Shown one piece after another: positions 2,301 to 10,011 of a DNA stretch of 64,000 nt. The notes under the pieces were generated by a model. That model ran no database searches and was not told the origin of the DNA. It saw nothing but the letters and a program-made list of their open reading frames with translations. The stretch lies in contig NZ_JAAMOZ010000001.1 in the NCBI RefSeq assembly GCF_011758645.1, positions 1,116,001-1,180,000 on the forward strand, read 5' to 3'. Each line of letters begins with the position of its first letter. The first letter of the stretch is position 1. This DNA is from Brooklawnia cerclae (GTDB lineage Bacteria > Actinomycetota > Actinomycetes > Propionibacteriales > Propionibacteriaceae). The translations under genes were made by a program, and so were the position numbers.

Positions 2301-4904
2301 GTGCAGGACGAGATGGCCGGTGCTGGTGGCTCCCCAACGGATGTGACCGGCCTGCCGCGGAGCACCCCGTCGCATCTGGACCGGCCCCGGCTGCTGTCGC
2401 TGCTGGGCGGAGCCGAGTCGGAGCCGCTGGTGGTGCTCCAGGCGGGGTCGGGATACGGAAAGAGTGCACTGCTCAGTTCCTGGGCACACCACCAGGCGGC
2501 CTCCACCAGCCTGGTGTGGGTCACCGCGGGCGCCGTCGTCGATCCGGCCGACTTCTGGGGGATGCTGGCGGGCCGCCTGACAGAGGCGATCGGGCCCGTG
2601 GGAGGCATCGAGCCGCTGGCTCAGCACCGTGAGGTGGGCCCGGGCTTCGTCGCGGCCCTGGGCCGGGCGGCCGGTGAGGTCCCCGGTGGGCTGAGCGTGG
2701 TGATCGACGAGTTCGAGCGGCTCGCCGGCAGCCCGGTGGAGCGCGACCTGATCACCATGGTGTCGCGGGCTCCCGGTCTGCGGTTGCTGGTCGGTACCCG
2801 CGTCACCTCGTTGGTCGGCGATGTCTCCACCGCCGCACGCCTGGACACGATCCTGGTCGGCCCCGAGGCCTTGCGATTCACGGTGGACGAAGCCTCCGCC
2901 TTGGCGGCCCGGCTCGATCTGAAGCTGTCACCGCTCGACGTGCGCACGGTGTGGGACGCGACGGACGGCTGGCCGTTCGGGGTCCGTGCGGTGCTGGAGC
3001 GCCGTCGGAGGGCGCCCTCCGTGCCATCCTCGTTCGAGGCGCCCGGTGGCCGTGGAGCCACGGCGGATGCCGACGTCGTGCACGGTCTGCTCCGGGACGC
3101 TGTGGCCGACCTGCCGGGATTCGACCGGTTGCGGGCGGTGAGCGTCGTGGACACGTTCTCCATGTCTCTGGCCGAGGCCCTCGGCGTGGAGCCCCGTTCC
3201 CGCGAACTGTTCACGGGGCTCGCTGGTCGGGGACTCGGCACGTGGGAGAAAGCCGGTGGCGTCCGGGAGTTCCGTTTTCACCTGCTGGTACGCAGGATGC
3301 TCCGCGAGGAACTCGCGGCGGATCCGGACGCCGAGCGCGCCGCCTACCGTGCACTCGCCGTGTGGCATGCCGCCCACGGCGACCATGCGCGGGCGCTGGC
3401 CGCCGCTGTCGAGGCCCGCGACTGGGCGGCTGCCGGCCGAGCGCTGCGCCACTGCATCGGAGGGATAACCGAGATCCTTGGCCCGCAGGGGCCCGATCTT
3501 GCCGTCGTCCCGGCAGCCGCCCGCGCCCGCGACCCCCTGCTGGGCTACGCCGTGGCCGTGTCGCACAGCACTCGTGGCCGCTGGCCGCAGGCCGCCGCCG
3601 CGTACCGCCGGACGGTGGAGGCCTGCGAGGAACGAACCTCCGGGCACGGCGGGCCTCCCGTCGAGGCCGCGTGGTGCCGCGGCCTCGCGGCGCTCGCCCT
3701 GCGCCAACTCGGTCGCTGGGACGAGGTGCCGCAGGCTTTCGCCGACGCTTCCGGCGCCCTGGAGGCGATGGACGACACCGATCCCGATCTGGATCAGCTA
3801 CGCAGCTTCTTCCATATCCAGCGCTCCTCGACCCTCATCAACCTCGACCAGTTGGAGGATGCCTCCCGGGAACTCGCCCAGCGCCCGGCGCTGTTCGATT
3901 CCCCCGACTTCTGGATCCCGCAACTCCACGTGGTCTCCCTGCGCGCCCTCGCCGCGGCCCGACTCGGGGAAACCCACCGGGCGGCCCGCGCGATCGACGA
4001 GGTGCGGGCGATGACCGGAGCGGCCCAGTTCGTCGGGACGGTCTATGCCAATCCGCTGCACCTCGCCGCCGCCGAGGTGGCGTTGGAGAGACTGGACCTG
4101 GACGTGGCCTCCCACGAACTCGAGATCCTCAGCCCCCGCTGGGCGACGATCGAGCGGTGGCCGATGCTGCTGGAAGTGGGCACGCGGCTGCTGTGGTTCA
4201 CCGAAGGCGCCGAGGAGGCGCTCCGGCATCTGTCCGCGGGCATGGGGGAAAAACGTGGCGTGCCACCGATCACCCCGGGGCTGGCTGACGTGTTGCGTGC
4301 GCTGAGAGCCGACCTGCTGCTCGCCCAGGGCCGGACCGCCGAAGCGGCGCGCGTCATCGGCAGCGGGTCGGTCGCCGCCCGGCCCAGGCTGGTGCTGTCC
4401 CAGGCCCTGCTGCTCTTCCAGCGTGGCCGATGGACCTCGCTCGCCGCCTTCGGTGCCGCGCATCGTTCCGATTCCCGGCTGACGGCGGCCCCCCGTCTGT
4501 CACTGCTGCTCCTGGAGGCATCGGCTGCTTTGCGGCTCGGTTCCTCGCCCGCGGACGCGTTCTCCCGGGCGTTGGGGATCGCCGAGCGTCACGGGCTGCG
4601 GGCCGCCTTCGGCGTGATACCGCTGGAGGATCGCGAGGAACTCGCCGCCCTGGACCCGCGTGGACGGGACTTCTTGGACGTGCCGTTCCGGTTCGTCCCG
4701 GCCGCTCGTCAGGCAGACCTGACTGAGCGGGAGCGGATCGTGCTGGCCGAACTCGTCCGTTCGCCGGGGGCGGGCGAGATCGCCATCGCGCTGCAGGTCT
4801 CGCGCAACACCGTCAAGACCCAGCTGCGGTCGATCTATCGCAAGCTCGGGGTGTCCACCCGGTCCGACGCCATCGCCCGCGGGCTGCGTGACGGCCTGGT
4901 GTGA
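2301..4904 (+). CDS. MalT/LAL-type LuxR family ATP-binding regulator
   Basis: An 867-residue protein with the three-part LAL layout. An N-terminal STAND/AAA-type NTPase has a P-loop GSGYGKSALL at about residues 49-58 and a Walker B-like VVIDEF segment. A long helical, TPR-like middle region follows. The C-terminal LuxR/GerE helix-turn-helix is at residues 807-867 (LTERERIVLAEL, VSRNTVKTQLRSIYRKLGV). The domain order and length match MalT-like activators, where inducer and ATP drive oligomerisation and DNA binding. The GTG start is supported by a leaderless -10 box 6 bases upstream rather than by a ribosome binding site. It lies 97 bases after the sortase-anchored surface protein and converges with the P-type ATPase gene. 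The inducer and targets are unknown; control of the neighbouring surface protein is only a guess. Confidence 0.88.
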   Translation: MQDEMAGAGGSPTDVTGLPRSTPSHLDRPRLLSLLGGAESEPLVVLQAGSGYGKSALLSSWAHHQAASTSLVWVTAGAVVDPADFWGMLAGRLTEAIGPVGGIEPLAQHREVGPGFVAALGRAAGEVPGGLSVVIDEFERLAGSPVERDLITMVSRAPGLRLLVGTRVTSLVGDVSTAARLDTILVGPEALRFTVDEASALAARLDLKLSPLDVRTVWDATDGWPFGVRAVLERRRRAPSVPSSFEAPGGRGATADADVVHGLLRDAVADLPGFDRLRAVSVVDTFSMSLAEALGVEPRSRELFTGLAGRGLGTWEKAGGVREFRFHLLVRRMLREELAADPDAERAAYRALAVWHAAHGDHARALAAAVEARDWAAAGRALRHCIGGITEILGPQGPDLAVVPAAARARDPLLGYAVAVSHSTRGRWPQAAAAYRRTVEACEERTSGHGGPPVEAAWCRGLAALALRQLGRWDEVPQAFADASGALEAMDDTDPDLDQLRSFFHIQRSSTLINLDQLEDASRELAQRPALFDSPDFWIPQLHVVSLRALAAARLGETHRAARAIDEVRAMTGAAQFVGTVYANPLHLAAAEVALERLDLDVASHELEILSPRWATIERWPMLLEVGTRLLWFTEGAEEALRHLSAGMGEKRGVPPITPGLADVLRALRADLLLAQGRTAEAARVIGSGSVAARPRLVLSQALLLFQRGRWTSLAAFGAAHRSDSRLTAAPRLSLLLLEASAALRLGSSPADAFSRALGIAERHGLRAAFGVIPLEDREELAALDPRGRDFLDVPFRFVPAARQADLTERERIVLAELVRSPGAGEIAIALQVSRNTVKTQLRSIYRKLGVSTRSDAIARGLRDGLV

Positions 4905-4916
4905 CCCTTCGGCCGC

Positions 4917-7733
<2,817 letters not shown>

Positions 7734-7764
7734 GGATCAACTCTGTGCGCCCCCGGGGCACGGA

Positions 7765-8532
7765 TCAAGCGTCCCCGCGTGTTGCGTCCGGGTATCGCCG
7801 CGCCAGCACCACCCCGTCGCTCAGGGTCGCCGGTTCGCCGTCCGGGCCCGTGGCGAGGCGCTGCCTGACCTCGCAGACGAGCACCTGCCATTCGCGCTCG
7901 TCGAGAGCCAGAGCCTCGGCCTCCTCCCGTGGAGTGGGAAATCGGTGCTCTTTTTCGTGGAGGGCACTCGCCCAGGGCGGGGCAGCGGCGTGCGAGGTGA
8001 CGAGCAGGTGCCCGCCGGGAGCCACATGACCGGCCGCACGGCGCAGGATCTCGGTGCGGGGCAGACCCACCGGGGAGTGAAGGAAACTCGCCGTCACCAG
8101 GTCGTAGTCCCCGAGGCCGCCCGGTTCGGACAGATCGGTGGCCAGGAATTGCGCCCGGTTGCCGGGGATGCCCGCTTCCCGGGCGGCCTCCGCCGCCCGG
8201 GCGATCGCGGTCGGTGAGATGTCGAGGCCGGTCGCGGTCCAGCCGTGCTGGGCGAGCCAGATGACGTCGCCTCCCTCGCCACAGCCCAGATCGAGGGCGC
8301 GTCCCGGTGGAAGGGCCCCGGCGATGTCGGCCAGCACCCGGTTGACCCGCCCGGACCACACCGGTCCCGAACCCGAGTAGCGATCCTCCCAGTAGTCGAC
8401 GGGCGCGATCTCCGGCCATCCGGCCTGGTTCCCGTCCGCGTGGCCGTGGTCGTCGTTCCCGGCCTGGCCCGCGTCGTTCGGCGGAGTGTCCTCGGGCCCG
8501 CCCGTTGCCGTGTCGTTCGCTCGTTCCTGCAT
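7765..8532 (-). CDS. Class I SAM-dependent methyltransferase
   Basis: A 255-residue Rossmann-fold methyltransferase. Motif I is ALDLGCGEGGDVIWLA, followed by the acidic residue in TGLDIS that binds the ribose of S-adenosylmethionine, and a post-I region typical of methyltransferase family 11/25. The preceding VDYWEDRYSGSGPVWSGRVN segment is often seen in TehB/thiopurine-type enzymes acting on small molecules. The first 45 residues are Gly/Asp/Asn rich and probably disordered. The ATG at 8532 has a GGAG sequence 7 bases upstream. The gene lies upstream of the P-type ATPase on the same strand. The substrate cannot be read from the sequence. Confidence 0.85.
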   Translation of the reverse strand: MQERANDTATGGPEDTPPNDAGQAGNDDHGHADGNQAGWPEIAPVDYWEDRYSGSGPVWSGRVNRVLADIAGALPPGRALDLGCGEGGDVIWLAQHGWTATGLDISPTAIARAAEAAREAGIPGNRAQFLATDLSEPGGLGDYDLVTASFLHSPVGLPRTEILRRAAGHVAPGGHLLVTSHAAAPPWASALHEKEHRFPTPREEAEALALDEREWQVLVCEVRQRLATGPDGEPATLSDGVVLARRYPDATRGDA

Positions 8533-8613
8533 GTCTCAACTCCATCGGGGAACGGACGGAATCGCAAGCATCCGGCGTCGTGGCTCGGCCTGTGGCGCCG
8601 CGCCCGGCGCTGC

Positions 8614-8619
8614 TAGCAT
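8614..8619 (+). promoter_or_regulatory. -10 hexamer TAGCAT for a leaderless transcript
   Basis: TAGCAT fits TANNNT and ends exactly 7 bases before the ATG at 8627. A transcript starting here would begin at or next to that ATG. This arrangement is the usual one for leaderless actinobacterial genes. The -35 region is not obvious. The promoter would drive the cysteine-tract short ORF and, by read-through, the DUF1847 gene. Confidence 0.55.
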
Positions 8620-8626
8620 GACGCGC

Positions 8627-8695
8627 ATGCAACCCAGTACCCATGCCGCCGCGTCGCTGGCATGGGTGCGCCTGTGTTGCTGTCGTCGCGCCTGA
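8627..8695 (+). CDS. Leaderless poly-cysteine leader peptide (putative attenuator uORF)
   Basis: A 22-codon ORF whose product ends in VRLCCCRRA. Three consecutive Cys codons (TGT TGC TGT) are followed by two Arg codons and a stop. An in-frame ATG at 8618 would add three residues, but it lies inside the -10 hexamer. Mycobacteria are known to carry leaderless short ORFs with Cys tracts before sulfur-assimilation genes. Ribosome stalling on the Cys codons at low Cys-tRNA changes the downstream RNA structure. This ORF has the same position, length, leaderless start and -CCC-RR- ending. It lies 191 bases before the DUF1847 gene. The peptide itself probably has no function; its translation is the sensor. 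The role is inferred from analogy. Confidence 0.7.
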   Translation: MQPSTHAAASLAWVRLCCCRRA

Positions 8696-8817
8696 CGCGC
8701 GGCTCGCTCGCCTTCGCGATACGCCGTTCGGCCTCGTGGGGACGCGCATGTGCTCCCGCCCGGGCCGCCGGCCGGTTCACGCCGTCGGACCACGGCCCTC
8801 GCAAAGCCCCTCATCCC

Positions 8818-8859
8818 GTGACAGCGCCGGTTCGCCCACCCGGCTCGCGGCACCGTCAC
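8818..8859 (+). promoter_or_regulatory. Stem-loop in the leader between the Cys ORF and DUF1847
   Basis: GTGAC (8818-8822) can pair with GTCAC (8855-8859), and GCCGG (8826-8830) with CCGGC (8840-8844). The structure ends about 15 bases before the purine-rich ribosome binding site at 8874-8880. It could take part in attenuation by alternative pairing with the region just after the Cys codons (8696-8760), which is also GC-rich and self-complementary. RNA folding has not been computed; this is a visual reading. Confidence 0.3.
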
Positions 8860-8886
8860 CGAGCACGCGATCTGAAAAGGAACACC

Positions 8887-9627
8887 ATGACTGCCAAGAA
8901 GACGACCACGAGGACGCGGCAGACAGCGCGCGTCAAGGCCACGGACCTCACGTGCACCGACTGTGCCGTGACGGCCTGCCGGGTCGGCACCGGGCTGGGC
9001 AACGGCACACGCTTCCCCGACTTCTGCCTGAGCACCTCGCTCGATCCCTCGACCCTCACCGAGGTCCTCGGCCGCTACGACGAGCAGGATGCGCACCGCG
9101 TCATGGTCGCCGCCGCCGAGACCGAGCACGAGGGATACGGCCGTTGGCCGCGGGTGGAGGAGACGATCCAGTTCGCCCGCAAGATCGGTGCGCACAAGCT
9201 CGGGATCGCCACGTGCGTGGGGCTGATCCAGGAGTCCCGCACCCTGGCTCGCATCCTGCGCGATCGGGGCTTCGAGGTGTTCGGTGTGGGGTGCAAGGTG
9301 GGGACGACGGCCAAGCACGAGGTCGGCATCGACGCGGCCTGCGAGCAGACCGGGGTGAACATGTGCAACCCGATCCTCCAGGCCGAACTGCTCAACGAGG
9401 AGGGCACCGACCTCAACATCGTGGTGGGCCTGTGCGTGGGCCACGACGCGCTGTTCGTCCGGCACTCGAAGGCCTACGCCACCACCCTGGTCGCCAAGGA
9501 CAGGGTCACGGGGCACAACCCGATCGCGGCGCTCTACCTGAACGGCTCGTACTATCGCAAGCTCAACGACGAGTGGGACCGGCCGGCCGAACTCACGGAA
9601 CCGGGGGACAGCCGGTCCGCGTCCTGA
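8887..9627 (+). CDS. DUF1847 family metal-binding protein
   Basis: A 246-residue protein of the DUF1847 family, with a Cys-rich N-terminal motif (C23, C26, C31, C47: CTDCAVTACR and FCLS). Conserved blocks later in the protein contain further Cys and His residues (GVGCKVG, NMCNP, GLCVGHD). This suggests a bound metal or Fe-S centre. Family members are known mainly from anaerobes and have no established function. The ATG at 8887 is preceded by AAAAGGA with good spacing. An upstream extension of the frame lacks a ribosome binding site and is compositionally unlike the protein. The gene follows the leaderless poly-cysteine ORF, so expression is probably tuned to cysteine or Cys-tRNA supply, which hints at a role in sulfur or thiol metabolism. 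Confidence 0.82.
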   Translation: MTAKKTTTRTRQTARVKATDLTCTDCAVTACRVGTGLGNGTRFPDFCLSTSLDPSTLTEVLGRYDEQDAHRVMVAAAETEHEGYGRWPRVEETIQFARKIGAHKLGIATCVGLIQESRTLARILRDRGFEVFGVGCKVGTTAKHEVGIDAACEQTGVNMCNPILQAELLNEEGTDLNIVVGLCVGHDALFVRHSKAYATTLVAKDRVTGHNPIAALYLNGSYYRKLNDEWDRPAELTEPGDSRSAS

Positions 9628-9795: not shown

Positions 9796-10011
9796 ATGAA
9801 GCAGGGCATTCATCCCGAGTACCACGACGTCAAGGTCGTGTGCACTTGTGGCAACCAGTTCACCACACGCAGCACCTTCACCGGCGACGTGATGGCCGCC
9901 GACGTGTGCTCCGCGTGCCACCCGTTCTACACCGGCAAGCAGAAGATCCTCGACACCGGTGGCCGCGTGGCACGGTTCGAGCGCCGCTACGGCAAGGGGA
10001 ACAAGAAGTAG
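9796..10011 (+). CDS. rpmE: 50S ribosomal protein L31, zinc-binding (C+) form
   Basis: A 71-residue L31 protein of standard length, part of the large ribosomal subunit and of a bridge to the small subunit. The four Cys residues that bind zinc are all present (C16, C18, C38, C41 in VVCTCGN and [11 protein letters not shown]). This is therefore the C+ form, which in other actinobacteria is replaced under zinc starvation by a Cys-less paralogue; none is visible here. The ATG at 9796 has an AAGGAGAAG sequence at ideal spacing; the longer upstream reading frame has no support. The prfA gene follows after 87 bases, as in other actinobacteria. Confidence 0.96.

Follow-up and report, generated by a model that had tools for sequence, protein, structure and literature searches.

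A leaderless short ORF with three consecutive cysteine codons as a probable cysteine-sensing leader of a DUF1847 gene

The window analysed here, a 64,000-nucleotide stretch of the Brooklawnia cerclae genome, contains a short ORF of leaderless type between a methyltransferase gene on the opposite strand and a DUF1847 protein gene, with rpmE farther downstream (Table 1). In the preliminary description of this DNA, a TAGCAT hexamer had been placed exactly 7 bases before the ATG of a 22-codon Cys-tract ORF, with DUF1847 as the downstream gene; direct reading of the sequence confirms the former, and the latter is borne out by the match of the gene product to profile PF08901 (206.4 bits against a cut-off of 25, E 2.2e-61). 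The short ORF runs from ATG at 8627–8629 to TGA at 8693–8695, and its peptide ends in …RLCCCRRA. This ORF makes up the end of a longer open frame that starts at GTG 8486, and there is an additional in-frame ATG at 8618; the promoter spacing is absent for both of these starts. Among the 13 leader rows compared, the distance from the –10 hexamer to the ATG is 7 in 11 and 6 in two. A TANNNT scan of 8696–8886 revealed no second candidate –10 ahead of DUF1847. A sigma-70-type hexamer pair was also sought at the short-ORF locus and none was found, which counts against the reading of this ORF as a cysteine-sensing leader.

Table 1. Features of the DUF1847 locus, with positions in the window.
Feature	Position	Strand	Remarks
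Methyltransferase gene	7765-8532	-	Flanking gene, other side of short ORF
–10 promoter hexamer TAGCAT	8614-8619	+	Read from sequence; 7 nt ahead of ATG
Spacer between –10 hexamer and ATG	8620-8626	+	7 nt
Leaderless short ORF (candidate cysteine leader)	8627-8695	+	22 codons; encodes MQPSTHAAASLAWVRLCCCRRA
Three consecutive Cys codons TGT TGC TGT	8675-8683	+	Codons 17-19 of 22
Leader from short ORF to DUF1847	8696-8886	+	191 nt
C-rich, G-poor stretch	8789-8848	+	C minus G = 16 in 60 nt
Shine-Dalgarno-like AAAAGGAA of DUF1847	8875-8882	+	Read from sequence
DUF1847 protein gene	8887-9627	+	ATG start; 246 aa; PF08901 match
rpmE (L31)	9796-10011		Downstream of DUF1847

The region ahead of rpmE (4917–9627) comprises a P-type-ATPase-like ORF, read from its translation, followed by the methyltransferase and DUF1847 genes. 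Farther upstream, translations indicate a large surface-type ORF (2–2203), repetitive and carrying an LPRTG sorting-like motif close to its end, and, after it, a regulator-like ORF (2301–4904). The segment 9715–9771, upstream of rpmE, gave a sub-threshold match to the Rfam L31-Actinobacteria leader (28.3 bits, cut-off 35).

Six cysteines are invariant across eight aligned DUF1847 homologues. A search of the literature available for the word DUF1847 found no paper, and comparison with solved structures gave weak partial matches only, the best being a designed repeat protein (E 1.7e-7 over 43 residues) and the next having E 0.003. No other carrier was found among 37 relatives, and of 391 genomes of the order this genome alone has DUF1847 (1/391). 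The family occurs in 14 of 396 phylum-sample genomes, this one included, and all other matches in that sample are labelled as the same phylum, not the same class. The nearest relatives seen were in Lachnoclostridium (57%, in a search that reaches close relatives only) and in a Phocaeicola plasmid record (56% over 83%). In seven other members of the genus the DNA ahead of rpmE differs, a local rearrangement or insertion, and the 1.5 kb before rpmE contained neither DUF1847 nor the methyltransferase; the frame upstream of rpmE in five of these seven looks like rho. With one such rho-like protein as query, matches in the window were weak (22–26% identity) and none lay before rpmE. GC content at third positions is 0.93 for DUF1847 and 0.83–0.90 for three neighbours. 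From its distribution, the rpmE-flank comparison and third-position GC, DUF1847 therefore looks acquired and adapted.

Around DUF1847 genes elsewhere, 20 neighbouring proteins of 10 loci and two annotated plasmid regions were compared. They revealed no steady partner, and include cobalamin adenosyltransferase, DUF362, LeuRS, an FtsH-like protease, amidases, Mrp and nitroreductase. In Niameybacter (L054), a TauE/SafE-type transporter gene lies directly upstream of DUF1847. A search for sulfur riboswitches or T-boxes before DUF1847 in 20 sources (L055 set aside) gave one T-box only, ahead of a leucyl-tRNA synthetase gene (L049). The preliminary description had proposed looking for a Cys-tract ORF before DUF1847 homologues. 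That comparison gives no support: a leaderless Cys-Cys ORF was found upstream of none of 21 other DUF1847 genes (22 locus rows, up to 700 nt, four plasmid matches excluded), and DUF1847 was found in no close relative.

Leaderless-type short ORFs were defined as TANNNT, a gap of 6–7 nt, ATG and 8–60 codons in total. Three other such ORFs with CCC (6 or 7 nt spacing) were found in this genome, encoding MIVSEIAHPATIGGAYAHVPVCSSPGCCCR, MSSADVPTRDLTCRVAPGTRCCCRSAMLRV and MGSRIGAHLRIDGQHEPRRESGCSACCCRPCPTIG, and the genes 3′ of them are those for SBP_bac_5, PF03601 (YeiH-like) and P5CR-like proteins. In the PF03601 case the small ORF comes first, then the transporter gene; divergent from the latter is a gene of sirA type, itself preceded by a leaderless short ORF with four Cys, MAAQGCDILFCSRAACPRACRAS. 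This sirA-type gene, read as far as the edge of the locus, matches NIR_SIR_ferr at 79.5 bits. The P5CR-like (P5CR_dimer) target is followed by a Glyoxalase_3 protein gene; at this locus (L110, G000:C4:95500-102300, minus), where both stand behind the leaderless CCC ORF, they are possibly a sulfur-linked pair of a new sort. The SBP_bac_5 and P5CR-like targets are at most putative sulfur genes, and their relatives in the genus, among the matches listed, show only about 35% identity or less. By eye, L111 and L112 (G000:C4 and C6) are apparently one SBP-like plus ABC-like block on two contigs, either a repeat or an assembly overlap. For the PF03601 target, the available text of PMC12880088 attributes sulfite resistance of Salmonella to YeiH and sets this route apart from the assimilation of sulfur for cysteine, a role that offers a hint for the gene here at family level alone.

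The layout was also sought in relatives. Two other species of the genus (G006 and G007) carry MSIPAPISVAFLMLRGCCCRRGTRACLR and MSVPAPISMASLVLRGCCCRRGVLACL before a PF03601 gene (70–71% identical), and between these two peptides the flanks differ at several positions and CCCRR is constant. In 60 loci (218,170 bases) drawn from searches with PF01507 and PF03601 proteins, leaderless short ORFs with Cys-Cys numbered three, one each in this genome, G006 and G007, and each of them precedes the PF03601 gene. None was found in the 900 nt upstream of the close PF03601 relatives in G002, G004 and G031, or upstream of the second PF03601 copies in G006 and G007 over the same length; of the four further members of the genus that have a close PF03601 gene, two thus keep the leader. 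Twelve longer stretches beside relatives' PF01507 genes were also scanned, 11 of them upstream and one (G001) downstream. Leaderless Cys-Cys ORFs were present in four of them, with two in G006, the same pair in G007, and further cases in G004 and G018; the other eight had none. Where downstream genes were scanned (G006, G004 and G018, with G007 left out), the next gene after a leaderless Cys ORF was sulfite reductase in each genome, so that outside this genome sulfite-reductase leaders are found in two members of the genus and one member of the family. The second such ORF in G006 lies ahead of genes for SBP_bac_11, permease and ABC proteins, and in G003 one leaderless ORF encodes an HHVDL motif and just one Cys. 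Taking the PF01507 loci and the 12 stretches together, five of seven unique ATG-started leaderless short ORFs contain Cys, four of them Cys-Cys. The layout therefore recurs before sulfur genes in the genus and extends to one or more other genera of the family.

Canestrari et al. 2020 (Mol Microbiol) reportedly deals with the leaderless polycysteine short ORFs found in mycobacteria. The available portions of PMC9031893, PMC9094748 and PMC13236596 describe such ORFs, with attenuation governed by ribosome speed on Cys codons (PMC9031893) and set beside translation attenuation by Shine-Dalgarno masking (PMC13236596). The DUF1847 leader resembles them in being a leaderless-type short ORF, placed first in the transcript by its promoter, and in its contiguous Cys codons near the ORF end, and sister leaders here likewise have sulfur genes downstream; unlike them, it has DUF1847 as target and a 191-nt leader in which Shine-Dalgarno masking was not seen. 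A 2005 survey (PMC1262725), in the text available, reports peptides with runs of Cys ahead of the cys operons of Mycobacterium and Propionibacterium acnes and ahead of cbs in Bifidobacterium longum, finds no terminators at the actinobacterial cys operons and suggests Rho, a prediction that its authors call weak. The run of Cys codons near the stop and the lack of an obvious terminator are common to those leaders and the present one; DUF1847 as target sets ours apart, as does the leaderless start, which the available part of that survey does not mention. For cysA2 and other mycobacterial genes, the accessible text of PMC4633059 describes a conserved Cys-rich leaderless uORF with measured ribosome occupancy. 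As read from sequence, the DUF1847 leader shares its leaderless form and C-terminal Cys cluster. The proposed switch is of a known kind, and DUF1847 is its unusual target.

Leaderless Cys ORFs before sulfur genes in this genome and genus make cysteine-responsive control the best reading of the DUF1847 leader. The 22-codon ORF is probably the gene of a cysteine-sensing leader peptide, in which a stall on the Cys codons raises DUF1847 expression. Specifically, from the promoter we infer that transcription starts at or beside ATG 8627, such that ribosomes would begin on the ORF at the very 5′ end of the transcript; under a shortage of charged Cys-tRNA they would halt at the three Cys codons, and this would raise the output of the DUF1847 gene, which begins after a further 191 nt. 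The ORF would be one unit of a leader set in this bacterium, the others standing before sulfite-reductase-type, PF03601, SBP_bac_5 and P5CR-like genes. A native cysteine-leader system thus appears to be present, with DUF1847 wired into it. Of the attenuator claimed in the preliminary description, the leaderless Cys-tract ORF of the mycobacterial kind stands, together with the same layout before sulfur genes; the comparison with other DUF1847 genes gave it no support, and folding showed no Shine-Dalgarno masking.

Partition-function folding was applied to six leaders as single sequences in three states: without a ribosome, with one modelled as stalled, and with one at the stop. The mean unpaired probability of the DUF1847 Shine-Dalgarno was 0.64 free, 0.67 stalled and 0.64 at the stop, and in none of the six leaders did the stalled ribosome shift accessibility by more than 0.03; masking by the Cys region, as in polycysteine attenuators, was therefore rejected for this leader. 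The wider start region was 0.70 open in all three states for DUF1847, and was slightly more accessible in the stalled than in the stop state for SBP_bac_5 (0.53 vs 0.45) and P5CR (0.66 vs 0.55). Folding at the Cys codons of the DUF1847 leader equalled the median of 55 control sites, with no sign of a special hairpin, and a stem across the stop codon was not unusual (z –0.19), the strongest among 13 rows being that of G018 (z –2.20). A classical attenuator with an intrinsic terminator was also rejected, as no GC-rich hairpin with a T run occurs on the + strand of 8480–9000, and no known RNA element was found over the DUF1847 leader.

As an alternative to Shine-Dalgarno masking, the stall could act by relieving Rho-dependent termination in the long leader. 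With ample cysteine, the ribosome would leave at the stop and Rho, loading on the long C-rich leader, would end transcription ahead of DUF1847, whereas a stalled ribosome would shield the RNA. This is a variant of the cysteine-leader explanation and the two overlap; we regard it as tentative. It is consistent with a + strand free of intrinsic terminators, with the unmasked Shine-Dalgarno and with the suggestion of Rho, in the text available, by the survey that found no terminators (PMC1262725). The C-rich stretch within the leader is a possible, weak candidate for a Rho loading region, its C bias being reached by 6% of 4,000 random 190-nt genome stretches. Against it, this bias is modest, and although the PF03601 leader of this genome likewise stands at 6%, the other four of the six leaders are weaker (12 to 37%). 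On this basis cysteine sensing is kept as likely, whatever the output step.

It is also conceivable, if unlikely, that the leaderless ORF arose by chance with a fortuitous Cys run, and that the 8614 promoter drives constitutive expression of DUF1847 on a long-leader transcript. No conservation can be shown at the DUF1847 locus, the folding of the leader is unremarkable, and the Cys-tract pattern itself (TGYTGYTGYCG) is not enriched, with 58 genome sites against 97 for the mirror control. In addition, two of six leaderless short ORFs in this genome's Cys-site loci are Cys-free, and hence a leaderless short ORF is not always a Cys leader. The combination of start and Cys tract argues the other way. 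Inspection of all 58 sites placed four in frame, 16–26 codons behind a leaderless-type start, compared to an expectation of 0.095 (about 0.1) from 168,660 positions in 30 same-genome loci; these loci had been picked because they hold Cys sites, and two of the four cases lie among them. By our own arithmetic the Poisson probability is ~3e-6 for four cases and ~1e-4 for the three that are left once the prompting ORF at 8627 is omitted. The set of Cys leaders is incomplete, since the scan took only three Cys codons followed by CG. Moreover, the 8627 ORF is the sole ATG-started leaderless-type short ORF in the window (both strands, 128,000 strand-bases), and the same layout recurs before sulfur genes in this genome and genus.

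The promoter pattern was also considered on its own. TAGNAT-N7-ATG occurs at 18 genome sites versus four in the mirror control, and 11 of 13 other sites fetched open frames of at least 92 codons (the remaining two opened 3 codons and a 22-codon ORF without Cys); the pattern therefore tends to mark genuine leaderless genes. A search for CTSTGYTGYTGYCGNCG in 147 family genomes gave matches in 12, none of them behind a leaderless start except the window's own.

That the ORF does not act in cis but encodes a small protein with a function of its own, such as a redox or metal peptide rich in Cys, is very improbable: translation of the ORF is expected either way, but by eye the peptides of different genes have little in common apart from Cys with Arg close by, and the G006 and G007 peptides vary in their flanking residues around a constant CCCRR.

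The cysteine-leader reading of the 22-codon ORF may be placed in the sulfur metabolism of this strain. The genome has four matches to PF01507 (the CysH/CysD domain), all at or below 38 bits (cut-off 22.5), compared to matches of 119–165 bits in five of seven other genus members. This is suggestive only, but ordinary CysH and CysD may be missing from the strain, and it may depend on sulfite, thiosulfate or organic sulfur. A fuller proposal, which we consider doubtful, is that DUF1847 is a cysteine- or sulfur-supply protein from anaerobes, brought under the bacterium's own cysteine leaders. With a sirA-type gene present but the PF01507 matches weak, it would on this proposal serve an alternative reduced-sulfur route, and the leader would have Rho as its output in place of Shine-Dalgarno masking.

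Overall, this lineage probably acquired DUF1847, which would now stand under native cysteine-leader control, and the gene looks tied to a type of switch that is also found ahead of sulfur genes, both here and in related bacteria. If true, this would make cysteine-reading leaderless ORFs a recurring layout in another actinobacterial genus, and one able to take in a newly acquired gene. Regulation of DUF1847 in one strain is a clue to function, not proof; it would nevertheless be the first functional clue, that of cysteine limitation, for a protein family without a known role.
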